A DNA stretch of 64,000 nucleotides from Anaeromyxobacter dehalogenans 2CP-1. GTDB taxonomy: Bacteria > Myxococcota > Myxococcia > Myxococcales > Anaeromyxobacteraceae. The translations under genes were made by a program, and so were the position numbers. The notes beneath the pieces were generated by a model. The model worked only from the letters and a program-made list of their open reading frames with translations. It ran no database searches and was not told the origin of the DNA. This document shows positions 1,175-51,979 of the stretch, one piece after another; within the stretch, counting starts at the first letter, position 1; every line of letters starts with the position of its first letter. The DNA lies in assembly GCF_000022145.1 (NCBI RefSeq), contig NC_011891.1, positions 4,136,501 through 4,200,500 of the forward strand, in the 5' to 3' direction.

Positions 1175-1290
1175 GCGGGGATTGTAGACGGCGGCGCGGG
1201 CGCGTGGCCCGCCGCCAGGCGGGGGGGCCCGCGCGGCAGGGCCGGGCGCCGCGAAGCTCCGCTTATGTGGCGGGGCGCAGCCCCGTCCGC

Positions 1291-2748
1291 TCAACTCAGC
1301 AGCTGCGCCGCCACGTTCGCGCCCGGGACGTGCGCCATGAAGTGCACGAGCGCGAGGAGCCCGCCGGCGAGGGCCGCGTAGGCGATCCCCCACGCGGCGA
1401 TCTGCCGCGGCGACATGGGGGCGGCGCGTGCCGCCTTCTCGAGCCGCTCCAGGCCGCGCAGCCACATGGGCTCGGAGGGCGAGCCGAGCGGCGGCCCGAC
1501 CACCGCGCGCAGGTAGCGGAAGTGCTCCGGCCCGAAGCGCGCGCGCTCGGGGAGGAGCCGCAGCGCCCGGCCGCCGGCGCGCGACTGCGCCTCGCCCATC
1601 AGCTCCATCGCGCCGAGCAGCGCCACCAGCCACACCAGCCCGTAGCCGAGCGCGCTCCCGACCGCCACCGCGCCGCCCAGGCCGAGCACGGTGAGCGCGA
1701 GGCCGAGCGAGGACGAGAACGAGTACGCGAGCGCCTGCATGAGCCGGCCGCCATCGAGCGGCGACACCGGGATGAGGTTGAACAGGTTGATGATCGCCCA
1801 CCAGGACGCGACCGCGGCGAAGATGGGCTGGCCCGTCCACAGCCACAGCCCCGCCGGCACCAGCGCGAACACGGAGCCCCAGATCGGCCCGGAGAGCGCC
1901 ACGTAGGCCTGCTGCCAGCGCGAGGTGAACGCGTCCTCGGTGACCGCCACCGCGCCGAGGAACGGCACGAAGTACATGCCGCGCACCTGCATCCCGGTGC
2001 GGCGCATCGCGTGGACGTGGCCGTACTCGTGCACGAAGAGCTGCAGCAGGAGCGCGAGCGCGAACTTCCAGGAGAAGATGACGCCGTACGCCGCGGCCGA
2101 CGCGGCCGCCCAGCCGAGGTTGGCGGTCTTGAGCGCCTTCAGCACCGTGCCGCCCAGCTTCGCGAGGACCCCCAGGAACCCGACGCTGGCGCGGCGGTCG
2201 CCGGGGCGCGCCGGCGCCGCGGCCGCGCCGGGCTCGGTCACGGGCTGCGGCGGCGGCGCGAGCAGGCTCGCGGGCAAGGCGAACCAGGCCGGCGCCCGCT
2301 GGACCACGAGCGCGAGCAGCAGCGCCGCGTCGCGGAGGTCGGTCACCTCCACGTCGTCGCCGTCGAGGCCGCGCACCGGCGCGCAGGGCGGCGCGCCGGC
2401 CAGATCGGCGAACGCGAACGAGCGGCCGCGCGCGTCGGCCAGGATGGCGTAGCGCTGCGGCGGGCCGACCGGGCGCGGGCTCTGCCCGAAGCCGACGCGC
2501 ACGTCCGACCAGCGGGCGTCGAGGCCGTCCTCGCGGCCGAGCACGCGCAGGCCCTCCTCGCTCGCCACCGCGCGCAGGCCGGTGACCTGGCGCACGCCGA
2601 GCGCGACCGCGGCGGCGGCGCCGCCGAACAGCGCCGCGAGCACGGGCGGGATGCCGGCGAGCAGGCCGACGAGCGCGCCGCCCACCGCGCCCAGCAGGAG
2701 GGACGGGAGCACGGCGCGTGCGGCGGGACGGAAGACGGCGGGTTCCAT
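1291..2748 (-). CDS. M50-family (site-2-protease-like) membrane metalloprotease
   Basis: A 485-residue multi-pass membrane protein with the zinc-protease motif HEYGH near residue 250 and the second metal-ligand motif NLIPVSPLDGG near residue 350, as in M50 intramembrane proteases. The N-terminal 180 residues hold two predicted membrane segments and a soluble PH-like stretch, the protease core lies in the middle, and a further membrane helix sits near the C-terminus. No PDZ domain is visible, unlike rseP at 3.6-5.2 kb. The ATG at 2748 is used; an in-frame GTG 9 nt upstream is possible. The substrate is unknown. It is separated from tsaB by 35 bp on the same strand and may be cotranscribed. Confidence 0.8.
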   Translation of the reverse strand: MEPAVFRPAARAVLPSLLLGAVGGALVGLLAGIPPVLAALFGGAAAAVALGVRQVTGLRAVASEEGLRVLGREDGLDARWSDVRVGFGQSPRPVGPPQRYAILADARGRSFAFADLAGAPPCAPVRGLDGDDVEVTDLRDAALLLALVVQRAPAWFALPASLLAPPPQPVTEPGAAAAPARPGDRRASVGFLGVLAKLGGTVLKALKTANLGWAAASAAAYGVIFSWKFALALLLQLFVHEYGHVHAMRRTGMQVRGMYFVPFLGAVAVTEDAFTSRWQQAYVALSGPIWGSVFALVPAGLWLWTGQPIFAAVASWWAIINLFNLIPVSPLDGGRLMQALAYSFSSSLGLALTVLGLGGAVAVGSALGYGLVWLVALLGAMELMGEAQSRAGGRALRLLPERARFGPEHFRYLRAVVGPPLGSPSEPMWLRGLERLEKAARAAPMSPRQIAAWGIAYAALAGGLLALVHFMAHVPGANVAAQLLS

Positions 2749-2783
2749 GGCGATCACCGGGGGCCGGGGGGGACGCAGGCCGC

Positions 2784-3554
2784 TCAAGGCCGCTGCGCGC
2801 CCGGCCCGAGGCCGTGGGGAAACTTGAGCTCCGCCTCGCTGGCGCGGACGTAGTGCGGCTCGAGCGCGAACAGCGCCTGCGCGTCGTACGGGCGGGAGCG
2901 GAGCGCGGGGGCGGCGAGCGCCGCGACGGCGCCCGCGGGCGGGGCGACCGGGGCGCCGGCGAGGCGGGCCAGGCGGCCCTCCAGCATCTCCGCGTACGCG
3001 GCGAGCCCCTCGCCGAGCGCGAGCGCGTCCGCGCCGCCGGGCAGCGTCGCGAGCCGCTCGAGGAGCGCGCCGGGGGCGAGCGCGGCGTCCGGCGCCACCG
3101 CCTCCACCGCGCCGCCCGCGACCCGGTAGAAGCCGGCGTAAACCTCGCCCTTCTTCGCGTCGAGCAGCGGCACGAGCAGCGCGCCGTCCGGCGCCGCGGG
3201 GGCCGCGCCGAGCGCGAGCGCCGCGAGGCTGGACGCGCCGGCGATGGGCCGCCGGCTCGCGTAGGCGAGCCCCTTCCACGTGGCGAGGCCGATGCGCAGG
3301 CCGGTGAACGAGCCGGGGCCGATGCCGATCGCGTAGCCCTCGACGTCGGGCAGCGTCAGCCCCTCGGCGGTGAGCAGGTCGGTGAGCGCCGAGGGGAGCC
3401 GCGCGCCGTGGCCGCCGGTCCGGCCCGGCGCGGGCTTCGTCGCGGCGTGCTCGGTGCGCTCGCAGCGGACGCGCACCGGCCCGCCGGCCGGGTCGAGGTC
3501 GACGAGGGCGCAGGACAGCGTGAGGGTGGCGGTGTCGAGGGCGGCGACGAGCAC
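2784..3554 (-). CDS. tsaB: tRNA threonylcarbamoyladenosine biosynthesis protein TsaB
   Basis: A 256-residue ASKHA-fold protein of the TsaB/YeaZ family, a partner of TsaD in making t6A37 of ANN-decoding tRNAs. It starts with GTG and the family N-terminus LVAALDTATLTLSCAL. It has IGIGPGSFTGLRIGLATWKGLA near residue 90, the TsaB signature. It is a little longer than typical TsaB (about 230 residues) owing to an Ala/Pro-rich C-terminal half. It lies 9 bp downstream of rseP and is probably in the same transcript. Confidence 0.93.
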   Translation of the reverse strand: MLVAALDTATLTLSCALVDLDPAGGPVRVRCERTEHAATKPAPGRTGGHGARLPSALTDLLTAEGLTLPDVEGYAIGIGPGSFTGLRIGLATWKGLAYASRRPIAGASSLAALALGAAPAAPDGALLVPLLDAKKGEVYAGFYRVAGGAVEAVAPDAALAPGALLERLATLPGGADALALGEGLAAYAEMLEGRLARLAGAPVAPPAGAVAALAAPALRSRPYDAQALFALEPHYVRASEAELKFPHGLGPGAQRP

Positions 3555-3563
3555 GGGCCGGTT

Positions 3564-5249
3564 CTACTCCATCGGCCGCATGAGGCGCACGATGTCGTTC
3601 TTGAACACGAACAGCATGAGCGTGAACAGCAGCACGATGCCGACGATGTTCGCGAGCTCGCGCGTCCGCACCGAGAGCGGCCGCCGGGTGACGCCCTCCA
3701 GCGCCGCCTGCGCGATGTGGCCGCCGTCGAGCACCGGGATGGGCAGCAGGTTCATCAGGCCGAGGTTCACGCTGATGAGCGCCATCTTGAACAGGAACGA
3801 GCCCCAGCCCTCCTCCGCCGCCTCCGAGGCGATGGAGAACAGCATGATGGGCCCGCCCACCGTCTTGAAGCTGATGTCGCCGGTGACGATGCGGACGATG
3901 CCGAGCACGGTGAGCCGCACCACCTCGTGGAGCTGCCGCCAGGCGAGCTGGAACGCCTCCACCGCGCCGCGCGCGAGCGGCACCTGCTCCGCCAGCAGCG
4001 CCAGCGGATCGACCGCGTCGCGCTGGTCCGGCTGGAAGCCCAGCACCAGGCGCTGCGCCGGCTCGCCGGTGATCTCGTCACGGTAGGTCTCGTTCGCCGG
4101 CACGAGCGCCACCGTGCGGCCGTCGGCGAGCCCGAGCTGCACCGGGGTCCCGGCCTTCAGGAAGTCGCGCCCGAACGCGTTCAGGTCCCGCAGGAACGAG
4201 CGGACCGGCTTGCCGTTCACCGAGGCGATGGCGTCGCCGCGGCGCAGCCCCGCCTTCTCGGCCGGGCTGCCCGGGACCACGGTGGCGATGAACGTGGACA
4301 CCGCCGGGTCCGCCACCGCGAACGTGCGCTCGCCGGCGGCGCAGGTGGGCACCTGCGGGAGCGAGACCGCGCGGTGGTCGGCGAGCGCGACGCCCGGGAG
4401 CGTCCGCGGCGACTCCCGCACCACCTCGAGGTCGAGCGGGCCGCAGCGCGCCGCGGCCACCGCGTGCTCGAGGTCGCCCGCGTGGCGCACCGCCTTCCCG
4501 CCGGCGGCGATCACGAGGTCGAACGGCTCGAGCGGGCCGGCGAGGCCGGGCCGCACCGGGGCCACCACCGCGCTCGGATACGTCGGCGTCACGCCGATCA
4601 CGCCGCGCCGCGTGGACTCGATGGGGTTCGACTCCTGCTCGCTCGCCGGGGTGATGGTGAGCGCCCGCTGCGCGCCGTCCCGCTCGATCCGGAAGGTGAG
4701 CGGCTCGCCGGGGTGCGGCGACACGAGGTCGCGCAGGTCGGAGAAGTAGCGCACCGGGTCGGCGGCCTGGCCGGGCGCGGCCACGCTCAGGATGCGATCG
4801 CCGGGCTGCATGCCGGCCTCCGCGGCCGGGGTCCCGGGCGCGACGGTGCCGACCACCGGGCCGGGGGCCGGCTCCCCGTTCTGGGCGAGCGCCAGCGCGA
4901 CGTAGATGACGCCGGGGAAGATCAGGTTCGCGGCCGGACCGGCCACCGCGATGAGCAGGCGCTTCCAGGGCCGCTGCTCGAGGAAGCCGCGGCCGGCGTC
5001 CTCCGGGGCCACCGCCTCGGAGGGATCGTCGCCGGCCATCTTCACGTAGCCGCCGAGCGGCAGCAGCGCGATCCGGTACTCGGTCTCGCCGCGCTGGACC
5101 CCGAACAGGCGGGGCCCGAAGCCGATCGAGAAGCGGACGACCTTCACGCCCATGAGCTTCGCGACCACGAAGTGGCCGAGCTCGTGGACGAAGATGAGCC
5201 CCCCGAGGAGGAGGACGATGGAACCGATCTTCAGGAGGAGGTCCGGCAT
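3564..5249 (-). CDS. rseP: RIP metalloprotease RseP (site-2 protease, PDZ)
   Basis: A 561-residue intramembrane zinc protease. The first membrane segment holds HELGH (residues 22-26) and the C-terminal segment has NLLPIPVLDGGH, which supplies the third metal ligand. Two PDZ domains lie between: the first has GTPAAEAGMQPGDRILSV near 135-155, the second has GSPAEKAGLRRGDAIASVNG near 330-350. The protein is about 110 residues longer than E. coli RseP because the inter-PDZ region is extended. The family cleaves anti-sigma factors and leftover signal peptides in the inner membrane. It sits in the common order dxr-rseP-tsaB, 85 bp downstream of dxr. Confidence 0.95.
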   Translation of the reverse strand: MPDLLLKIGSIVLLLGGLIFVHELGHFVVAKLMGVKVVRFSIGFGPRLFGVQRGETEYRIALLPLGGYVKMAGDDPSEAVAPEDAGRGFLEQRPWKRLLIAVAGPAANLIFPGVIYVALALAQNGEPAPGPVVGTVAPGTPAAEAGMQPGDRILSVAAPGQAADPVRYFSDLRDLVSPHPGEPLTFRIERDGAQRALTITPASEQESNPIESTRRGVIGVTPTYPSAVVAPVRPGLAGPLEPFDLVIAAGGKAVRHAGDLEHAVAAARCGPLDLEVVRESPRTLPGVALADHRAVSLPQVPTCAAGERTFAVADPAVSTFIATVVPGSPAEKAGLRRGDAIASVNGKPVRSFLRDLNAFGRDFLKAGTPVQLGLADGRTVALVPANETYRDEITGEPAQRLVLGFQPDQRDAVDPLALLAEQVPLARGAVEAFQLAWRQLHEVVRLTVLGIVRIVTGDISFKTVGGPIMLFSIASEAAEEGWGSFLFKMALISVNLGLMNLLPIPVLDGGHIAQAALEGVTRRPLSVRTRELANIVGIVLLFTLMLFVFKNDIVRLMRPME

Positions 5250-5334
5250 TCTTTTTTACTTAGCACCGGGACGCCGGACACGCTCGCCTGCCCGGTCGGC
5301 GGGGGAGGCGGCGGGGCGGATTGCCCCGGGCGCC

Positions 5335-6507
5335 CTATCGGCTCGCCGGAGCGTGCGCGCGCGCACCGACGCGCTTCTCGGCCTCGCGCCGGCCGTGCTC
5401 GCTCGCGGCGAGCGCCTGCTCCACCGAGCGCACCGGCTCGACCACGTGCGCCTCGAGCACGTCCGCGCAGACCTCGGCGATCTCGGTGAAGCTGCAGCGG
5501 CGCGCCAGGAACGCGGCCACGGCGGCCTCGTCGGCGCCGGAGAGCACCGCCGGCGCGGTGCCGCCCAGCTCGAGCGCGCGGTACGCCAGCGTGTAGGCCG
5601 GGAAGCGCGCCGGATCCGGCGGCTCGAAGGTGAGCTTCCCGAGCCGCCCGAGGTCGAGCGGCGGCAGGTCGAGCGGCATGCGCTCGGGGTGGCCCATCGC
5701 GTAGCTGATCGGCCCGCGCATGTCGGAGATCCCGAGCTGCGCCACGATGGAGCCGTCCACGTACTCGACCATCGAGTGCACCACCGACTCCGGGTGCACG
5801 ACGATGTCGATGCGCTGCTGCTCCACCCCGAACAGCCAGCGCGCCTCGATGACCTCGAGCCCCTTGTTCATCAGGGTGGCCGAGTCGATGGTGATCTTGT
5901 CGCCCATCGACCAGTTCGGATGCTTGAGGGCGCGCTCGGGCGTGACCGTGGCGAGCTCCGCCTCGGGCGTGCAGCGCAGCGGCCCACCGGACGCGGTGAG
6001 GATGAGGCGCCGCACCTCGCCGCGGTTGTGGCCGACGAGCGACTGGTGGATGGCGCTGTGCTCGGAGTCGACCGGCAGGATGGCGACGCCCTTCGCGGCG
6101 GCGCGGGCCATGAGCAGCTCGCCCGCGAGCACCATCGACTCCTTGTTCGCGAGCCCCACCGGCTTGCCCGCCTCGATGGCCGCCGCGGTGGAGCGCAGCC
6201 CGGCGCCTCCCGAGATGGCCGCGAGCACGAACGCGGCGTCGGGGTGGCTCGCGACCGCCACCGCGCCCGCGTCGCCGGAGAGCACCTCGGTGCCGGGGGG
6301 CGCCTCGGCGCGGACCGCGCGGGCGGCCGCCTCGTCGCACACCGAGACCACCCGCGGGCGGAAGCGGCGGATCTGCTCGAGCAGGCGCGGCGCGTTGCGG
6401 CCGGCGGCGAGGCCCACCACCTCGAAGCGGTCGGGGAAGCGCCCCACCACGTCGAGTGCCTGGACGCCGATGGAGCCGGTGGACCCGAGGATGGCGACGC
6501 GCTTCAC
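5335..6507 (-). CDS. dxr: 1-deoxy-D-xylulose 5-phosphate reductoisomerase
   Basis: A 390-residue enzyme of the MEP isoprenoid pathway that converts DXP to 2-C-methyl-D-erythritol 4-phosphate with NADPH. The N-terminal VAILGSTGSIG is the NADPH loop. The family metal and substrate motifs VDSEHSA and TASGGP are present, and the C-terminal helical domain is complete. The start is GTG at 6507. Its neighbours cdsA and uppS upstream are the usual partners; UppS consumes the isoprenoid precursors made here. Confidence 0.96.
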   Translation of the reverse strand: MKRVAILGSTGSIGVQALDVVGRFPDRFEVVGLAAGRNAPRLLEQIRRFRPRVVSVCDEAAARAVRAEAPPGTEVLSGDAGAVAVASHPDAAFVLAAISGGAGLRSTAAAIEAGKPVGLANKESMVLAGELLMARAAAKGVAILPVDSEHSAIHQSLVGHNRGEVRRLILTASGGPLRCTPEAELATVTPERALKHPNWSMGDKITIDSATLMNKGLEVIEARWLFGVEQQRIDIVVHPESVVHSMVEYVDGSIVAQLGISDMRGPISYAMGHPERMPLDLPPLDLGRLGKLTFEPPDPARFPAYTLAYRALELGGTAPAVLSGADEAAVAAFLARRCSFTEIAEVCADVLEAHVVEPVRSVEQALAASEHGRREAEKRVGARAHAPASR

Positions 6508-6559
6508 GGGCTCCTCTCTACCACGCCGGCCGGCCCCGCGCCGCCGCGGGCGGGGGGCG

Positions 6560-7405
6560 CTACCCGGACTGAAGGACGTGCGCGACCGCGTACACCCAGG
6601 GAGACACGAACAGGAGCGCGTCGATGCGGTCGAGCAGTCCGCCGTGGCCCGGGATGATCTTGCCCGAGTCCTTCACCCCCGCGGCGCGCTTCACCATCGA
6701 CTCGGCCAGATCCCCGAGCGGCCCGAGCACCGCGCCCCCCACGCCGATGAGGATCGCGTGGGCCACCGACAGGTCCGCGGCGAGCGCGGGCAGGAGCGCC
6801 CGGGTGACGAGCGCCCCGACGATCGAGCCCACCGCGCCGCCCGCGAAGCCCTCCCAGGTCTTCTTGGGAGAGATGCGCTCGTACATCTTGTGCTTCCCGA
6901 ACGCGTGGCCGGCGAAGTAGGCGAACGTGTCGTTCCCCCAGGTCACCACGAACGCCAGGATCACCCACTCCACCCCGAAGCGCAGCCGCAGCGCGACCAC
7001 CGAGGCGAGCAGGACGCCGCAGTAGAGCCAGGAGAGCGCGACCGCGGACAGCGAGCGGGGGATCTCCTCGAGCGGCCCCCGCCGGAAGAGGTGGAGCGTG
7101 AACAGCGCGACCGTGGCGCCGGCCAGCGCGAGCCAGGTCCAGCCCGGCATCAGCTCGCCGCCCTCGCCGAACGCGGCCGCGAGCGGGATCGCCCCGCCGA
7201 CCGCGATGCCGAACGCCTCGGCGAGGCCCAGCCCCGCGAACATGAGGATGAGCTCGCTCGACGCCACCGCGCCGGCGGCCGCCGCGAGCAGCGCGAACGG
7301 GAGGCCGCCGAGGATGGTGATCCACACCGCGAGCGGGAACAGCACCACCGCCGACGCGACGCGCAGGCGCAGGTTCTGGCGGTTCTTCGGGTCGAGGGCG
7401 CCCAT
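6560..7405 (-). CDS. cdsA: Phosphatidate cytidylyltransferase
   Basis: A 281-residue polytopic membrane enzyme that makes CDP-diacylglycerol from phosphatidate and CTP. The C-terminal CDP-alcohol signature is present as GDLAESMVKRAAGVKDSGKI, followed by PGHGGLLDRIDALL, the invariant end of the family. About eight hydrophobic segments precede and surround it. It lies 9 bp downstream of uppS, so the two are certainly cotranscribed. Its product feeds PssA, encoded at 31.8 kb. Confidence 0.95.
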   Translation of the reverse strand: MGALDPKNRQNLRLRVASAVVLFPLAVWITILGGLPFALLAAAAGAVASSELILMFAGLGLAEAFGIAVGGAIPLAAAFGEGGELMPGWTWLALAGATVALFTLHLFRRGPLEEIPRSLSAVALSWLYCGVLLASVVALRLRFGVEWVILAFVVTWGNDTFAYFAGHAFGKHKMYERISPKKTWEGFAGGAVGSIVGALVTRALLPALAADLSVAHAILIGVGGAVLGPLGDLAESMVKRAAGVKDSGKIIPGHGGLLDRIDALLFVSPWVYAVAHVLQSG

Positions 7406-38845: not shown

Positions 38846-39814
38846 CTACCCCGCCGCCTCGGCCGCGACGACCGCCAGCGGGGTCGGTGCCCCCGGCGCC
38901 TTGATCCGCTCCACCAGCCGCTCGAAGGCTGCCGGGTTCGCGCGCAGCCACTCCGCCGCGCGCTCGCGACCCTGCCCGATCCGCTCGCCATCCATCGAGA
39001 AGTGCGCGCCGGACTTCTCCACCGCCCCGCGCTCGACGCCGAGGTCCACCGCCTCGCCGAAGCGGTCCACGCCCACCCCGTAGCGGATGTCGAACTCGGC
39101 CTCGCGGAACGGGGGCGCGACCTTGTTCTTCACCACCTTCACCCGCGTGCGGCTCCCCACCACCGCGTCGCCCTCCTTCACCTGGCCGATGCGCCGGATG
39201 TCCATGCGCACCGAGGCGTAGAACTTGAGCGCGTGGCCGCCGGTGGTGGTCTCCGGGTTCCCGAACATGACCCCGATCTTCATCCGGATCTGGTTGATGA
39301 AGACGACGAGGGTCTGGTTGCGCGAGACGACGCCGGTGAGCTTCCGGAGCGCCTGGCTCATGAGCCGCGCCTGCACGCCCATGTGCGCGTCGCCCATCTC
39401 GCCCTCGATCTCGGCCTTGGGGACGAGCGCCGCCACCGAGTCCACCACGATGACGTCGCAGGCGCCGGAGCGGACGAGCTGCTCGGCGATCTCCAGCGCC
39501 TGCTCGCCGGTGTCCGGCTGCGACACGAGCAGCTCGCCCAGGTTCACGCCCAGCTTTCGGGCGTAGCCCACGTCGAGCGCGTGCTCGGCGTCGAGAAAGG
39601 CGGCCACCCCGCCCGCCTTCTGCGCCTCGGCGATGGCGTGCAGCGCGAGCGTGGTCTTGCCCGACGACTCCGGCCCGAAGATCTCCACCACGCGGCCGCG
39701 AGGGAGCCCGCCCACGCCGAGCGCCAGGTCGAGCCCGATGGAGCCGCTCGGCACCACCGGCATCGCCGCCGGCTCCTCCGCCTCCCCCAGCCGCATGATG
39801 CTGCCCTTCCCGAA
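38846..39814 (-). pseudogene. recA: RecA, 3' part (codons 23 to end), split by a mobile element
   Basis: All of the RecA ATPase core is here: [20 protein letters not shown] (Walker A), [40 protein letters not shown] and the C-terminal domain. The first 22 codons are missing; they lie at 44.8 kb, beyond the element, with the FGKGS codons repeated at both ends. Upstream of FGKGSIM the reading frame meets a TGA at 39826-39828, so the only start left is ATG 39796, giving 316 residues with GGGAAGG just before it. Such a product lacks the N-terminal helix that RecA uses to contact its neighbour in the filament and is probably inactive (family knowledge). Excision would restore 343 residues. Confidence 0.92.
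39799..39814 (-). repeat. Left att repeat of element 1 (16 bp, in recA)
   Basis: TTCGGGAAGGGCAGCA on the minus strand, coding FGKGS(I) of RecA, is repeated exactly at 44774-44789. These two copies mark the crossover region of a serine recombinase element. Confidence 0.85.
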
Positions 39815-41411
39815 GCTCTGAACGGATCACCGCGTCCGATCGCTCCGCCTCCGCCGCCGCTCGTGCCACCCGACGTCACCACGCCGTTCACCTCCAGCCA
39901 ACCGTCCGGGAAGAGGAGGATCTCGCCGCCCGGCCCCACGAGCCACTCCAGGATCCTGCGCCACGACGCCTTGACGTTCTCGTAGACGGCGGCCTCCTCT
40001 GCGTCACGGGGGGCACCGAAGGCGCTGTCCGGCCAGCCGTACGAGAGGCCCTCGCGGATCTTCTCGACCGTCTGTTCCATCTCCTCCTCGTTGATCGGTG
40101 CCGCCTCGGCCGCGGCCATCCGCGCGTGGGCAGCGTCCCGAGCCGCCTCCGCCGCGTTCTGCTGCGCCCGGATGCCCTTCAACTCCGCCTCGAAGATGCG
40201 CTCGCGCACCTGCCCGAGCGTCCGCATGTGGACGAGCGTCCGCTCCTGCCGGTCCAGGGTGCGGAGCTTCTTCTCGGCGGCGGCGACCTCCTGCTTCGCA
40301 TCGTCACGCCCGGCTCGCGAGCGCTCCGCCTCGGCCTGCCTCCGCAGCCCCTCCCGCACGATCCTCGGATCGGAGAAGGCCCTGGTCAGCGAGGCCACGA
40401 GTCGCGCGTCCACGTCCGCGACAGCGATGCGCGGCTTCCCCCGCCCGCACCCGCGCGGGCAGAAGTACTTCCGCTCCCGGCGCCCGTCTCCGCCACCCGA
40501 CAACGCTGCGTAGATGCGCGGCCGCACTCGCCACACGAGGCGAGCTTGCGCAGCAGGGTGAACACCTTCGGCCGCGGACCCGAGAGCTTGTTGTTCAGCG
40601 TGAGCTGGGCGATGGCCCGCCGCTGCGTCACCTGATCCACGATGGGTTCGAGCTGGGTCGTGGCGCCGTACGTCGTGTAGCGCCCCACCGCGCCCGGCGA
40701 GTGGATGAGATGCGCCACCGTGCGCTTCAGCCACCGCCGATCCCCTCTGCCCAGCGGGCTCGGGATCCCCTTCGCGTTGAGCACCTCCGCGATCTCCCTG
40801 AGCGACATGCCGGCGAGGCACATCTCGAAGATCGACCGGTAGACCTCGGCGCGCTCCGGGTCGAGCGTCCACCCGTGCATCTTGTCGAAGCGCCGGCCGT
40901 ACGGCGGAAACCCGATGATGAGGCGCCCCTCCTGCGCTGCCCGCCGCTTCCCGGCCACCGTACGCTCCACGATCTTCCGGCGCTCCTCCGCTGCGCCCTC
41001 TGCCCGGACGATGGCCAAGATCCGGCCGGTCATCGTGCGCGGGTCCGTGATGGATCCATCGGCCTCCACGATGACAGCGTGGGCGCGGCGGATGATGCCG
41101 AAGACAGCCTCCTGCTCGTCGGGGTCGGCGTGCCGAGTCAGGCGATCGAGATGCCGGACCCGCACCTCATCGAAGCCGACTTCGTCCGCGAGCTGGGCGA
41201 GCCGCCGGATGTCCGGCCTGTCCGCGGTGGCCTTGGCGCCGCTCACGGCGAACTCGATCGTCTCCACGAGCATCCCGGGCCGGGCGAGACGCAGGCGCTT
41301 CAAGGCGGCGCGCTGGTCCTCGGGCGTGTCTCGGTCCGCCTGAGCGGAGGTGGACACCCTGATCAGCTCTATGAACCTCGGCCCCGTGCTCGGGGCGGTC
41401 GCGATCGTCAC
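39815..41411 (-). pseudogene. Large serine recombinase (frameshifted)
   Basis: The protein starts at GTG 41411. Its N-terminal resolvase domain has RVSTSAQ (nucleophile Ser20) and HLDRLTRH; the recombinase domain follows (GFPPYGRRFDKMHGWTLDPE) and then the zinc-ribbon start LASCGECGR. There the frame breaks near 40510-40520: one base is missing, and the rest continues in the next frame with IYAALSGGGDGRRERKYFCP, then CGRGKPRIAV, a coiled coil and a final LVGPGGEILLFPDGWLEVNG. As written the first frame ends at 40386. The second frame runs through the att repeat and stops at 39544 inside recA antisense to nothing else. A sequencing error is possible; otherwise the element is locked in place. 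Confidence 0.85.
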
Positions 41412-41620
41412 GATGCACCTCCGTCGTTCTGGCCCTTCCCCCAGCGCGCCTGCGCTCCCTTGCGGCCGGCGCCCGAGCGAACGGCGGCACGGATCGCCTG
41501 AACAACCTCCGGCCCGCGCACACGAGATGCAACCGCGAGCGGCAGGATCTCACCGCCCGCGCGTACCGCGACCGCAACGGCGTGAAGGCGCTGCCGCCCT
41601 CGCGCGAGCAGCGCCGGCAT
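41408..41620 (-). CDS. Small ORF coupled to the recombinase
   Basis: A 70-residue basic protein: PALLARGRQRLHAVAVAVRA, then VVQAIRAAVRSGAGRKGAQA with a RWGKGQND end. Its stop TGA overlaps the recombinase GTG (GTGA), so translation is coupled. The helical, Arg/Lys-rich sequence fits a small DNA-binding or recombination directionality protein, but no family is recognised. Coding status rests on position and the overlap. Confidence 0.4.
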   Translation of the reverse strand: MPALLARGRQRLHAVAVAVRAGGEILPLAVASRVRGPEVVQAIRAAVRSGAGRKGAQARWGKGQNDGGAS

Positions 41621-41809
41621 GACGCGGCGGTGGAGGGTGCGCTCTCCGTCGCGGCCCTCCTCGTCATCATCGCGATCGGGGTGCCCTGGCTGCTCGCGAA
41701 GCTGGCTGGGCGCGCCGTCCCGACGTCGGTGTAGCCGCAGCCCCGGCCGCGGCGCTGGACGACCAGCGGGAGAGGATCGCTCCGCCGGCCGGCTAGAAGC
41801 GTCGTCGGG

Positions 41810-41846
41810 TTGGCTCGCTTCGAGACGGCGCGTTAGGATGCGCACC
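41810..41846 (+). promoter_or_regulatory. Predicted promoter of the sce7726 gene
   Basis: TTGGCT (41810-41815) and TAGGAT (41834-41839) with an 18-nt spacer lie 7 nt before GTG 41847. The -10 box overlaps the upstream ATG 41838, so that ATG cannot be in the transcript if this promoter is used. Confidence 0.55.
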
Positions 41847-42428
41847 GTGCGCGACCTCGACGTTCGCCTTGCGCTACATGAGACGGTACTCGCGCGGCAT
41901 CGCGACGACCCGGAGACGATCGTCATCGACGAGTTCGGGTTGAACTGGGGCGTGGTCCGCGTGGACGTCGCGGTCGTGAACGGGACCATCCACGGCTACG
42001 AGATCAAGAGCGACTCGGACACGCTCGACCGGCTTCCCGTGCAGGCCGAGATGTACGGCCGCGTCCTCGACCGAGTCACCCTGGTCGCCGGCCGCCACCT
42101 CGCGGCTGCAGAGCGGCAGGTGCCGGACTGGTGGGGGCTCTGTGAGGCCATCGAGGTCGCGCCCGGGCAGGTAAGGCTCCGGTCCGTCCGGCGCGCCCGG
42201 TCGAACCGGAACCTCGACCTGAAGGCCGTCGCGATGCTGCTGTGGCGCGACGAGGCCCTGGCCATCTTGGAGGAGATGGGCTGCGCGGCAGGGCTCAGAG
42301 GCAAGCCCCGCCGCGCTCTCTACGGCGCCCTCGTGGAGCGCCTTAGTTCGACGCAGCTCCGCTCGCGGGTGCGGCGGGCACTGAAGCGCCGAGGGCCAGC
42401 TTGGAGAGCTGGTCCACCACGAACGTGA
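41847..42428 (+). CDS. sce7726 family protein
   Basis: A 193-residue protein of the sce7726 family, named after a Sorangium cellulosum gene. The hallmark words are visible: DVRLALHETVLARHRDDPET, then VIDEFGLNWGVVRVDVAVVN, HGYEIKSDSDTLDRLPVQ, VTLVAGRHL and VPDWWG. The E-x-K core (EIKSDSDTL) after a VDVA strand resembles a PD-(D/E)XK nuclease site (inference). GTG 41847 is preferred over ATG 41838 because the -10 box covers that ATG. It converges with, and overlaps by 86 bp, the beta-family gene, its usual partner. A defence role is suspected but unproven. Confidence 0.85.
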   Translation: MRDLDVRLALHETVLARHRDDPETIVIDEFGLNWGVVRVDVAVVNGTIHGYEIKSDSDTLDRLPVQAEMYGRVLDRVTLVAGRHLAAAERQVPDWWGLCEAIEVAPGQVRLRSVRRARSNRNLDLKAVAMLLWRDEALAILEEMGCAAGLRGKPRRALYGALVERLSSTQLRSRVRRALKRRGPAWRAGPPRT

Positions 42429-43476
42429 TGTGGTGGTTGGTCGCGACCCGCCGCCACGTCTCGTGGTTGCCCGACCCGACGGTCCCGCTGGCGCACGCCG
42501 CGATGTAGTCGTCGCCCGCGCTGAACGCCGACCCGCAGTACGCCGGGTGCTTGACCACCAGCTTGCTCAGCGCGGTGAACTGGCCGAAGCCGTAGTTCTT
42601 GACGTTCCGGCCGCGGAAGATGACCCACTCGTCATCGCTCGTGTACCGGATGCTGGCGCTGATGAGGATGACGCGCGGGTCCAGCTCCTGGAGGTCCCAG
42701 TGCGCGACGGCGTAGTCGCCGTAGGTGGGCCGTCTCGGGAGGGAGCCGAGGGCCTTCCAGAGCGCCCACTCCGCGCGAGGCAGCGTGTGGACCCCGGGTG
42801 CGATGCCGCTCAGGTTCAACGGGAACGCCGTGGCGACGATGGTGAACGTCCGCCACGCCTTCAGGTTCGGGACCTTGCCGATGGCGCTCGCCGCCAACGC
42901 GGCGTTCACGGTCGTCTTGTTGGCCGACACGTCCTGCATGTCGATGACGACGTCAGCCGTCTTCTGCGTGACGCCGGTGGCCAGCAGCGCCTTGCTCACG
43001 GCCACCGGGAACGCGGGCGCCATCACCGCGTCGAGGCCCTCCCGCAGGCAGACGCCCCGCCGGTCCTTCTTGTGGATGCCGGCCGCGGCCTGGAGGATGT
43101 CCTGGGTCGCGCCGGTCGAGATGACCGGGATGGCGAGGATGGCCGCCGCACGGAGCCGGTCGAAGAGCCCGGTGAGCGTGGCCCCCGTCGCCTGGTTCGG
43201 CGGCAGGAGGCGGATGTCCACGAAGACGGGGTGGGCCGTGCCCCAACTCGACTTCATCTCCGCGATGGCGTCGTCCAGGTGCTTGGACAACGTCTTCTTG
43301 GCGGCGCCGGTCTCGGGGTCGGTGGGGACGGGAACGACCTCGACCAAGGGCGTGCAGGCCGCCTTCACGGCGGGGTCGAGGTCCTTCAACGCGCGCGCCT
43401 CCCCGCGCTTCCACTTCAGGACCGGGACGTAGTGCTGCTCGGAGAACTCCATGTTGAACTTCTGATCTGCTTCCAT
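42343..43476 (-). CDS. Beta family (sce7725-like) protein
   Basis: A 377-residue protein of the beta family (T4-beta-like), often found next to sce7726 genes. It starts with EQHYVPVLKWKRGEARALKD and then has a TIM-barrel-like series: CTPLVEVVPVP, AHPVFVDIRLL, IPVISTGATQDIL, ADVVIDMQDVS. TFTIVATAFPLNL, WALWKAL and a YGDYAVAHWDLQE stretch continuing with LDPRVILISASIRYT close the domain. AGGAGAG lies 8 nt before the ATG. It is convergent with sce7726, with tails overlapping by 86 bp, so the pair can be coregulated by antisense. No signal or membrane segment. Confidence 0.85.
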   Translation of the reverse strand: MEADQKFNMEFSEQHYVPVLKWKRGEARALKDLDPAVKAACTPLVEVVPVPTDPETGAAKKTLSKHLDDAIAEMKSSWGTAHPVFVDIRLLPPNQATGATLTGLFDRLRAAAILAIPVISTGATQDILQAAAGIHKKDRRGVCLREGLDAVMAPAFPVAVSKALLATGVTQKTADVVIDMQDVSANKTTVNAALAASAIGKVPNLKAWRTFTIVATAFPLNLSGIAPGVHTLPRAEWALWKALGSLPRRPTYGDYAVAHWDLQELDPRVILISASIRYTSDDEWVIFRGRNVKNYGFGQFTALSKLVVKHPAYCGSAFSAGDDYIAACASGTVGSGNHETWRRVATNHHITFVVDQLSKLALGASVPAAPASGAASN

Positions 43477-43796: not shown

Positions 43797-44234
43797 CTAG
43801 TTCCTCTTCATCACCACCTCGCACTGATGTTGCCGCGAGCAGAATTCGCCGCGACCATGGGACAAGATGCTCCCGTCCTGTCGGAGCCGGTGCAGCGCAA
43901 CTCGCACGGCGGAGCCGGCGCGCGGGAGTCCCAGCGCGCGTGCGATCGTAGACGGCGAGAAGGTTTCGTCAGGGTGCTCGTCCAAGAGTTTGACGATCTG
44001 GGTCGCGACGGAGACCTCCCGGGCAGCACCACCTCCGAACGCACGAGATGGATGGTAGAGCACCTCCACGTCTCGCGCCGAGAGTGCGGGAAGCTCCTTG
44101 GACACGACAGCGGGCTCCTGAGCCCGATCTTCGCCGTGGAGCAGCGCGTCGAGTTGACGCTCCAGTCGCGCCACCTCGTCTCGCGCCTTCGCGATCTGCA
44201 TCGACAACTCGATGACCTGCTCACGTCGCCCCAT
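43797..44234 (-). CDS. Small coiled-coil and winged-helix DNA-binding protein
   Basis: A 145-residue protein. Residues about 3-38 form a coiled coil (EQVIELSMQIAKARDEVARL), then a linker, then a winged-helix fold: IVKLLDEHPDETFSPSTIAR followed by ALGLPRAGSAVRVALHRLRQ and DGSILSHGRGEF. It is a likely transcriptional regulator of the element. Its promoter carries a 10-bp palindrome between -35 and -10, which suggests autoregulation. The start codon follows the -10 box by 10 nt, so the leader is very short. Confidence 0.7.
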   Translation of the reverse strand: MGRREQVIELSMQIAKARDEVARLERQLDALLHGEDRAQEPAVVSKELPALSARDVEVLYHPSRAFGGGAAREVSVATQIVKLLDEHPDETFSPSTIARALGLPRAGSAVRVALHRLRQDGSILSHGRGEFCSRQHQCEVVMKRN

Positions 44235-44773: not shown

Positions 44774-44789
44774 TGCTGCCCTTCCCGAA
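44774..44789 (-). repeat. Right att repeat of element 1 (16 bp)
   Basis: An exact second copy of TTCGGGAAGGGCAGCA, here at the end of the recA 5' fragment. The bases on either side differ from those at 39799-39814, so the repeat is exactly 16 bp. Confidence 0.85.
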
Positions 44790-44852
44790 CTGCTTCTCGA
44801 TGCCGGCCACGGCATGGCCCAGCGCCTTCCACTTCTCGCTCAGCTTGCTCAC
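44774..44852 (-). pseudogene. recA: RecA, 5' part (codons 1-26)
   Basis: The start GTG at 44852 gives VSKLSEKWKALGHAVAGIEK followed by QFGKGS, the N-terminal helix and linker of RecA. After the repeat the frame enters the element (TDSRARVPAPAGRS). The rest of recA is about 5 kb away at 38846-39814. The 5' end lies 58 bp downstream of the comM stop, so comM-recA was a tandem pair. The native recA promoter stays with this fragment, so the ATPase part has lost it. Confidence 0.9.
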
Positions 44853-44910: not shown

Positions 44911-45612
44911 TCACAGGAGCGGGCGGTCCAGCGCGCGGTACTGGATCGCCTCGGCCACGTGCGCCGCCTTCACGGCCTCGTCGCCCTCCAGGTCGGCGAT
45001 GGTGCGCGCCACCCGCAGCACCTTGTCGTGCGCCCGGGCGGACAGCCCGAGCCGCGCCACCGCGTCGTCGAGCAGGCGCCGCCCCGCCGCGTCCGGCGCG
45101 CAGATCCGGCGCAGCGCCGCGCCGCGCAGCCGCGCGTTCACCGGCGCGGTGCGGGGCCGGCCCGCGCCGCCTGCCGCTCGCGGGCCCGCGCCACGCGCGC
45201 CCGCACCTCGGCGCTCGGCACCCCGGGCGCGCCGCCGGACAGGAGCGCGGGCGGCACCGCCGGCACGTCCACGTGCAGGTCGATGCGGTCGAGCAGCGGG
45301 CCGGAGATCCGGCGCCGGTACGTCACCAGCTCGTGCGCGGTGCAGTGGCAGGCGCGGGTGCGATCGCCGTGGTGGCCACACGGGCACGGGTTCATCGCCG
45401 CCACCAGCATCACCTGCGACGGGTAGGTGACCGAGCGTCCCGCGCGCGCGATGCACACCTCCCCGTCCTCCAGCGGCTGGCGCATCGCCTCGAGCACGTG
45501 CCGCCGGAACTCGGGGAGCTCGTCGAGGAACAGGACCCCGTGGTGCGCGAGGGAGATCTCGCCGGGCCGCGGCGCGCTGCTGCCGCCCACCAGCCCGGCG
45601 TCGGAGATGGAA
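44911..45612 (-). pseudogene. comM: ComM/YifB Mg-chelatase-like ATPase, 3' part (frameshifted)
   Basis: The C-terminal half of the branch-migration helicase Com[41 protein letters not shown] (Walker B), [31 protein letters not shown] and, in another frame, the end [20 protein letters not shown] with [11 protein letters not shown]. One base is missing near 45145-45160. The 5' part is at 51782-51979. About 165 residues in between, including Walker A, are not found, so the gene is dead. In known transformers ComM extends recombination joints; in Acinetobacter comM is an island hotspot. Confidence 0.88.
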
Positions 45613-50749: not shown

Positions 50750-50938
50750 ATGTCGAACTCGAAGAAGCTGATCGTGGCCGGGTACGTCGCGGAGATGTTC
50801 ACGCGGACGGACGTTCCGACGCTGGGCGGATCGGTGACGCTCAAGGGCTTCCGGTGCAAGATGTGCGACCTCACCGTGCTAGCGGAAACGAAGGAGCAGG
50901 TTCCGCCGCATGAGTGCGACCGCGGATCGGTGCTCTAG
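50750..50938 (+). CDS. Small putative zinc-binding protein
   Basis: A 62-residue protein: SNSKKLIVAGYVAEMFTRTD, then LKGFRCKMCDLTVL and PPHECDRGSVL. CKMC and HEC may bind one zinc ion. GGAGGAGGAG lies 6 nt before the ATG. Its stop is directly followed by the GTG of the next gene. Confidence 0.55.
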   Translation: MSNSKKLIVAGYVAEMFTRTDVPTLGGSVTLKGFRCKMCDLTVLAETKEQVPPHECDRGSVL

Positions 50939-51130
50939 GTGGACCCGCTCGTCCTGCTCCTCGCGGTCCCGGTCGGGCTCGCGCTGACCTGGGTGTCGTT
51001 CTACGTGGCGGCGCACGCCGTGCTCAAGGCGTGGCGCCGGTCCCGGATGCGCCAGGTCGCGGCTGAGGAGGACCTCGCCGACGCCCGTGCCGAGGAGCGC
51101 CTCGCGCGGATGCGGACCGGCCGCGGCTAG
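50939..51130 (+). CDS. Small single-pass membrane protein
   Basis: A 63-residue protein with one N-terminal membrane helix (LVLLLAVPVGLALTWVSFYV) and a charged cytoplasmic coil (RQVAAEEDLADARAEERLAR). It starts at GTG immediately after the stop of the previous gene, so it is cotranscribed. Function unknown. Confidence 0.55.
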   Translation: MDPLVLLLAVPVGLALTWVSFYVAAHAVLKAWRRSRMRQVAAEEDLADARAEERLARMRTGRG

Positions 51131-51480
51131 AACGCCGCGCCGACCAGCAGCACCGCGCCGCCCGGCCCGCCGGCGACGGTGGCAACGCCCTCCGCCTGCC
51201 ACCGCCAGAGGCTCACGCGGCGCGTGGCGACGGCGCCGGCGAGCCACCCCGAGGGCGAGACCACGCCGAAGCGGCTGGGGCGATCCTCGTGCGCCTGGCA
51301 GGGCTCCGCGGGAGGCGTCCGCGCGGCGAGCGTCGCCGGCGCCGAGAACAGCTGCCGTGTCACCAGCGCGCCGCTCCCCTCGAGCCGCGCCCCGAGCGTG
51401 CCGGTCAGCCGGTACTCGCCTGCGGCCAGGCCGCGCTCGAGCACCAGGTCGGTGCCGAGCAGGAGCTCGCCGCCGCCCGG
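51127..51480 (-). pseudogene. Truncated coding remnant opposing the recombinase fragment
   Basis: The minus strand reads RPGGGELLLGTDLVLERGLA then GEYRLTGTLGARLEGSGALV and ends GGPGGAVLLVGAAF, a beta-rich protein end. Its beginning runs into the opposite-strand recombinase fragment, so the 5' part is gone. It converges with the membrane-protein gene and overlaps its stop. Confidence 0.35.
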
Positions 51481-51762
51481 GCGCGGGCCGAGTCGGCCGA
51501 GCGGCGGAGCGCCGTCGCGGCCGAGCTCGAGGTGAAGGTGGCCGCGCTCCGCGAACGCCTCGCCGACGCGACCGACCAGGACTGGCGCCAGCTCGTGGAG
51601 ATCCTGTTCCCGCGCACCGCGGCGACCGGCATCCGCGTCTTCCCGGACGGCCGGATCGACCTGCGCGGCGCGCTCTCGCTGGACGACGGCGGCGAAGCCG
51701 CGCTCTCGCGCGCCGCGCGCGACACCTCGCGCGTGCTGGTCCGGCTCGCGACGCGATCGTAG
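51470..51762 (+). pseudogene. Serine recombinase, C-terminal remnant
   Basis: About 97 residues: a coiled coil (ELAAARARAESAERRSAVAA, ELEVKVAALRERLADATDQD) and the end WRQLVEILFPRTAATGIRVF continuing PDGRIDLRGALSL. The FPDG..xxxxG pattern also ends the recombinase of element 1. The catalytic domain is missing. It stops 19 bp before the comM 5' piece, the same place relative to an att site as in element 1. Confidence 0.6.
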
Positions 51763-51781
51763 GCCGGCGGAGGGTTCTCCG

Positions 51782-51979
51782 AACCGTCACCCGCTTCGAC
51801 GGGAGCTTCACCCCGAGGTTCCGGATGGCGGCGAGCACCCGCACCTCGGCCTCGCGCACCGGCCCGGCCGCGAGCCCGACGATGTAGAACCCGGGCAACC
51901 CGACCGTCGCGTCCATCTCGACGTCCACCGGGACGGCGTTCACGCCGAGCACCGCCCCGGATCGCACGCGCACGAGCAT
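51782..51979 (-). pseudogene. comM: ComM/YifB ATPase, 5' part (66 codons)
   Basis: MLVRVRSGAVLGVNAVPVDV, then GLPGFYIVGLAAGPVREAEV and LGVKLPSKRVTV are the N-terminal Lon-protease-like domain of ComM. After KRVTV the family continues NLAPADL, but here the DNA changes to unrelated sequence. The partner 3' part is at 44911-45612. It lies downstream of the UDG gene on the same strand. Confidence 0.88.

Follow-up and report, generated by a model that had tools for sequence, protein, structure and literature searches.

Two genes of Anaeromyxobacter dehalogenans 2CP-1, one of the sce7726 family and one of the beta family, face each other on a small insertion and share their 3' ends, which raises the question of what such a pair does and whether the overlap itself has a meaning. 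We addressed this question in a window of 64,000 nucleotides (contig NC_011891.1, positions 4,136,501 to 4,200,500), the whole stretch of DNA that was analysed, and in related loci from other bacteria and phages. In our reading, to which we give a probability of roughly two in three, beta and cII/sce7726 represent the two-gene core of the gop-beta-cII/PD-λ-2 family, carried here as physically interlocked cargo, with a nuclease as effector, beta as sensor or restraint, and antisense tuning between them. The gene families are already known, as is the published defence role of the P4 trio and of PD-λ-2. New here is the overlap itself, which is conserved and dual-coded. Neither this feature, nor the embedded terminator, nor beta-cII as a core is reported in the openly licensed literature that we searched.

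The gene pair and its carrier element

The sce7726 (cII) gene is located on the plus strand (41838..42428) and encodes a predicted PD-(D/E)xK nuclease of 196 aa (E32, D43, E55-x-K57, Q69xxxY73), while the beta gene on the minus strand (42343..43476) encodes a protein of 377 aa with the PF14350 domain, a predicted TIM barrel. Both genes lie where the first-pass annotation had placed them, except that its start for sce7726, 41847, is an in-frame GTG nine bases downstream of the best start, the ATG at 41838. Its convergent overlap of 86 bp between the two 3' ends was exact (42343..42428). Matches to NCBIfam NF033832 for sce7726 (E 6.6e-43, 146.8 bits, curated cut-off 70) and to Pfam PF14350 (Beta_protein) for beta (E 4.3e-100, 336 bits, curated cut-off 27) exceed the curated thresholds. 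PADLOC labels sce7726 as 'cll' (E 2.9e-25) and gives beta its best score with PD-Lambda-2_C (PDLC03983, E 2.6e-49). In satellite P4, the homologues of the two genes are cII and beta. Upstream of sce7726, at a distance of about 100 bp, a small plus-strand ORF (41582-41734, 50 aa from a GTG) encodes one hydrophobic helix; P4 Gop has hydrophobic N-terminal stretches too, and the likeness consists of this feature alone, without evidence of sequence similarity.

The pair is the cargo of a small serine-recombinase element, a 4,975-bp insertion in recA flanked by 16-bp direct repeats. The left copy, TGCTGCCCTTCCCGAA on the plus strand, lies at 39799..39814 and the right copy at 44774..44789; read on the minus strand, the repeat is TTCGGGAAGGGCAGCA and comprises the recA codons for F-G-K-G-S. 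The insertion splits the minus-strand recA into a 5' fragment (44774..44852) and a 3' part (38846..39798), and joining the flanks over one repeat copy restores an uninterrupted RecA frame. The earlier suggestion that the genes sit on a mobile element is thereby borne out. A second, intact recA is present elsewhere in the genome (G000:C1:4592950), thanks to which the split of the first may be tolerated.

A sister genome (G031) has the same insertion with both repeat copies, at 98.8% identity over 7.2 kb. The cargo genes have remained intact, beta being 99.7% and sce7726 100% identical between the two genomes. The serine recombinase (40386..41411, minus strand; Resolvase and Recombinase domains, PF00239 1.3e-20 and PF07508 1.5e-11) is truncated in the window by a frameshift, a 1-nt difference from the sister copy, and the remainder of its frame continues towards 39.8 kb. 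For the sister copy, one in-frame stop (TAG) is reported. Since the recombinase is damaged in both genomes, the element has probably lost its mobility. The element also encodes a coiled-coil, HTH-like protein of 145 aa (43797..44234, minus strand), 320 bp upstream of beta, whose family was found only in the window genome and G031. Adjoining recA, a comM-like gene also looks split (44911-45590 and 50879-51979). Its guessed junctions gave no direct repeat of more than 9 bp, and the approximately 5 kb between its parts encode a phrog_2802-like protein, an HNH-like protein and a methyltransferase with an Mrr-like domain.

The convergent overlap in related loci

Using sce7726 alone as query, we fetched 160 loci from genomes and viral contigs and added a Myxococcota survey and phage records; hence, the survey of orientation was not selected for beta. 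Wherever a beta gene lay within 1.5 kb of sce7726, the two were tail to tail (162 of 162 rows, duplicates included). Removal of duplicates at 80% cII identity left 107 pairs. The claimed recurrence of the pair in other bacteria is confirmed, and it is wide. The genes overlap in 102 of these 107 pairs, by 8-179 nt, and 89 of the 102 overlaps are in phase 2 mod 3, although p-values for this phase overstate independence because the loci are related. In L018/L036, L073, L164 and others, the overlap reaches 135-179 nt, and a tail of about 40 residues of one protein is encoded fully antisense to the partner.

Two near-invariant residues serve as anchors, an Arg of cII (HMM column 188, 106 of 107) and a His of beta (column 354). 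Of 105 loci, 80 have exactly 39 nt between these anchors, six, the window included, have 42 nt, and nine of alphaproteobacterial type have 44 nt. By record titles, the 39-nt group spans about a dozen phyla, with 29-70% G+C: Myxococcota, Pseudomonadota, Acidobacteriota, Planctomycetota, Bacillota, Bacteroidota, Nitrospirota, Actinomycetota, Patescibacteria, Chloroflexota, Gastranaerophilales and others. A gene-calling artefact was considered and rejected, since the stops were taken from raw ORFs and the choice of start is irrelevant. The overlap exceeds what chance would give, and the first-pass annotation had missed that it dates far back in the family and is not a local accident. Outside the overlap, the identities of cII and beta correlate across loci (Mantel r 0.50, permuted maximum 0.12). 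As the overlap is nearly unchanged across many phyla, beta and cII have probably been locked together for a very long time.

The shared bases are constrained by both reading frames, as codon use shows (p 1e-22 to 1e-44). These p-values, which come from related loci, measure codon bias and not independent events. Within the 39-nt loci, the third base of cII Arg192 is A in 62 of 64 cases, compared with 33% for other cII Arg codons (p 3e-26), because the same base is the second base of the hydrophobic residue 362 of beta. Of 56 four-fold codons at cII column 193, 50 have T as third base (27% elsewhere, p 3e-22), since this base is also the second base of beta Gln361. Conversely, 73 of 75 codons at beta column 363 have C as their third base (23% elsewhere, p 5e-44), as required by TGG for cII Trp191. 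The window follows all three rules in its dual-coded core (42402..42411), where W189-R190-A191 of sce7726 (TGG AGA GCT) is antisense to Q356-L357-S358 of beta (CAG CTC TCC). We rejected beta as the cause of the W-R conservation in cII, since solitary sce7726 genes without beta keep W-R as well. In the phase-shifted group, cII mostly keeps the W and the beta tail changes.

On the beta strand, an intrinsic terminator embedded in cII was found in 13 of 41 AT-rich loci; the named loci are Bacillota. It falls on the same cII codons, K-G-L-[QH]-[KR]-G-x-x-[SG]-K-P, mostly 65-105 nt past the beta stop, whereas synonymous reshuffling of the cII codons gave a mean of 0.72 such loci and a maximum of 3. 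In 16 sequences, 92.4% of the cells of the hairpin pair, three base pairs have changed on both sides, and the shuffles gave 0/500 for the cell count as well as for the covariation score. Of the 12 wobble pairs, every one is G-U when read on the beta strand, with no A-C, and on the cII strand the G-U count would be zero (p 5e-4), so that the selected RNA is that of beta. On the nuclease strand, only 3 of the 41 AT-rich loci have an intrinsic terminator inside beta. As a group, the GC-rich loci showed no enrichment of antisense folding where the hairpin lies; we therefore claim the embedded terminator for Bacillota-type loci only.

In the window itself, the Bacillota hairpin is not clearly present. 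A 14-bp stem inside sce7726 (42283..42316, on the minus strand, that of beta) lies near the corresponding place, but it has no U-tract and is weakly supported in the window genome, where 4 of 300 synonymous shuffles were equally stable. No terminator-like sites were found in the window.

Predicted proteins and relation to known defence systems

Structure prediction gave sce7726 a model (pLDDT 93.9) with the element order H6-20 E28-35 E40-47 E51-57 H66-76 E79-84, which corresponds to the alpha-beta-beta-beta-alpha-beta core of PD-(D/E)xK enzymes with D...ExK. Its fold matches (3dnx Z 10.4, PaqCI 9.0, VC1899 8.4, EndoMS 7.5, BamHI 6.4) reach the level of the superfamily, and none is a close relative. 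The E-x-K strand that had been read from the sequence alone is real (E55-I-K57), and the nuclease fold expected with it is likewise supported by the model. All 20 aligned homologues, P4 cII among them, share E32, D43, E55, K57, D61, R65 and Q69. The protein is thus a predicted PD-(D/E)xK nuclease in which all catalytic positions are kept. With EndoMS, PaqCI, VC1899 and BamHI it shares the fold, the order of active-site residues and the ExK motif, but it has no close sequence relative of known structure, as no solved structure was matched by sequence. A solitary sce7726 gene without beta was seen in Myxococcus phage Mx4 (3995-4564), and several Myxococcota genomes have similar beta-less genes, for which a partner was searched for and not identified.

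The beta protein was modelled as a TIM barrel (pLDDT 84.7), with Z scores of about 12-13 to many proteins (TGT, aldolase, MTHFR). Naming its function from these matches was rejected, since TIM barrels all score alike, and a sequence search of solved structures gave chance-level matches only. K21, D87, R145, D179, R234 and D254 are invariant in a ten-member alignment; in the model, these residues are placed at the ends of strands or close by, and they may form a ligand-binding or active site. The full beta alignment had no stretch conserved enough for scanning.

The gop-beta-cII locus of satellite P4 gives E. coli protection from λ and P1, and in the absence of beta its Gop protein is toxic (Rousset 2022, PMC9122126, where Ghisotti 1990 is cited as an earlier source). 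In P4 (NC_001609), gop (247-648, +) and beta (651-1718, +) face cII (1746-2540, -), and the annotation as 'beta family' and 'sce7726 family' gives the same convergent order as in the window. Thus, both loci have adjacent, convergent and mobile-element-borne homologues of beta and cII. However, the P4 proteins are very diverged (about 17-23% identity), and P4 is an outlier with regard to the overlap, its genes being separated by a 27-nt gap with an annotated terminator. Moreover, the window has no gop; the next gene upstream of beta, 320 bp away, is that of the unrelated 145-aa HTH-like protein. No ORF related to gop was found in its locus set (phmmer E<=1) or in the other 106 non-redundant loci (same threshold; one match at E 0.054 was not significant), and none among 50,697 phage records besides P4.

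PD-λ-2 shares with the window its component C, which is beta-like and required against λvir (Vassallo 2022, PMC9519451), whereas the HigB-like A and the XRE-peptidase B located upstream of C are missing here. No A/B genes were found between beta and the element end, and no toxin gene was recognised next to beta. Directly 5' of beta, 18 other loci have an abutting XRE/IrrE-type gene, with sce7726 convergent downstream; on an Agrobacterium plasmid, a hypothetical-XRE-beta unit faces sce7726. Near this unit (pAt1D1460, 1256-6627), a reverse transcriptase gene was noticed, which suggests that the region is a defence island.

A gop-less convergent pair is also present in the lambdoid prophage Rac-SA53 of Escherichia (KU052037), where the 3' ends overlap by 41 bp and identity with the window proteins is about 31% for beta and 43% for cII. 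Among 5,426 E. coli genomes, the P4 trio occurs in 39 and the gop-less Rac-SA53 type in 93. Besides this prophage, the pair occurs in Gordonia and Mycolicibacterium phages and on plasmids. As gop was found only in P4-type loci and an XRE/IrrE-type gene takes the place next to beta in 18 others, beta-cII looks, by gene content, like the core, to which exchangeable upstream genes seem to have been added. The literature searched gave no statement, for or against, on a need for cII in the defence by P4. The assignment of the window pair to defence, as proposed in the first-pass annotation, gains homology to two tested systems, gop-beta-cII and PD-λ-2, which supports a putative defence role; the accompanying gop and A/B genes of these systems are absent here.

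Possible role of the interlocked arrangement

In a survey of long prokaryotic gene overlaps, it was concluded that only convergent ones may be genuine and that conservation of most is limited to very close species (PMC2478687). In contrast, the dual-coded overlap described here retains its fixed spacing in phyla as different as Patescibacteria and Myxococcota. A functional arrangement would add a physical and possibly RNA-based layer to a family that has been tested only as gop-beta-cII and PD-λ-2, and cII, which is usually overlooked, would then be a predicted core component. Antisense control of a defence nuclease would become directly testable by synonymous recoding.

We propose that the sce7726 nuclease would most likely act as effector or co-effector attacking phage or host nucleic acid, while the beta TIM-barrel protein may sense infection, keep the system in check, or both. 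The two strands of one and the same stretch encode the conserved C-terminal codons of both genes; by comparison of the loci, the pair therefore remains convergent and is retained, transferred or lost as a unit. From the anatomy of the overlapping stop codons, each mRNA must run into the coding end of the partner, which makes complementary 3' RNA unavoidable if both are made. In Bacillota-type relatives, the beta mRNA would end at the hairpin inside cII. Mutual antisense RNA or collision of polymerases probably tunes the ratio of beta to nuclease. The earlier idea that the overlap could limit expression is plausible, and the beta terminator inside cII in Bacillota-type loci lends it indirect support.

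A stronger version holds that the 3' antisense overlap itself is the regulatory device of an ancient, obligately interlocked core: the beta mRNA would end inside the nuclease gene, the nuclease mRNA would run against beta, and a phage-induced change in transcription or termination would shift the balance and release the nuclease, with gop and PD-λ-2 A/B as later add-ons. We regard this version as tentative and rather doubtful. The main rival, a serious candidate that we rate somewhat below an even chance, is that the overlap is a frozen accident with no regulatory role, where separation by mutation would damage both genes. The mutual constraint of the dual-coded bases fits this explanation, and so does the conservation of cII W-R independently of beta, which makes the A/S-N tail of beta look like a by-product that is tolerated. 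The phase would be preserved by vertical or unit inheritance alone. However, alphaproteobacterial and gammaproteobacterial subgroups have left the original phase or overlap, so that separation is possible, yet their genes are still convergent and close. Moreover, the beta terminator of Bacillota-type loci was built inside cII under extra selection.

Two further explanations leave out the defence effector or the function altogether. The occurrence of the genes on phages, plasmids and integrative elements, together with the solitary sce7726 genes of myxophages, would suit a nuclease that serves the mobile element in processing or maintenance, with beta as its regulator. We consider this unlikely, given that the P4 trio is a tested defence and that the carriers are unrelated (P4, a lambdoid prophage, actinophages, plasmids and a serine-recombinase island), which fits cargo better than core machinery. 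Even less probable is that the window pair is a decaying, non-functional remnant on an immobilised element. The broken recombinase frames in both genomes point in this direction, but the cargo genes retain all catalytic and invariant residues and have stayed nearly identical in G031 despite the loss of the recombinase frame.
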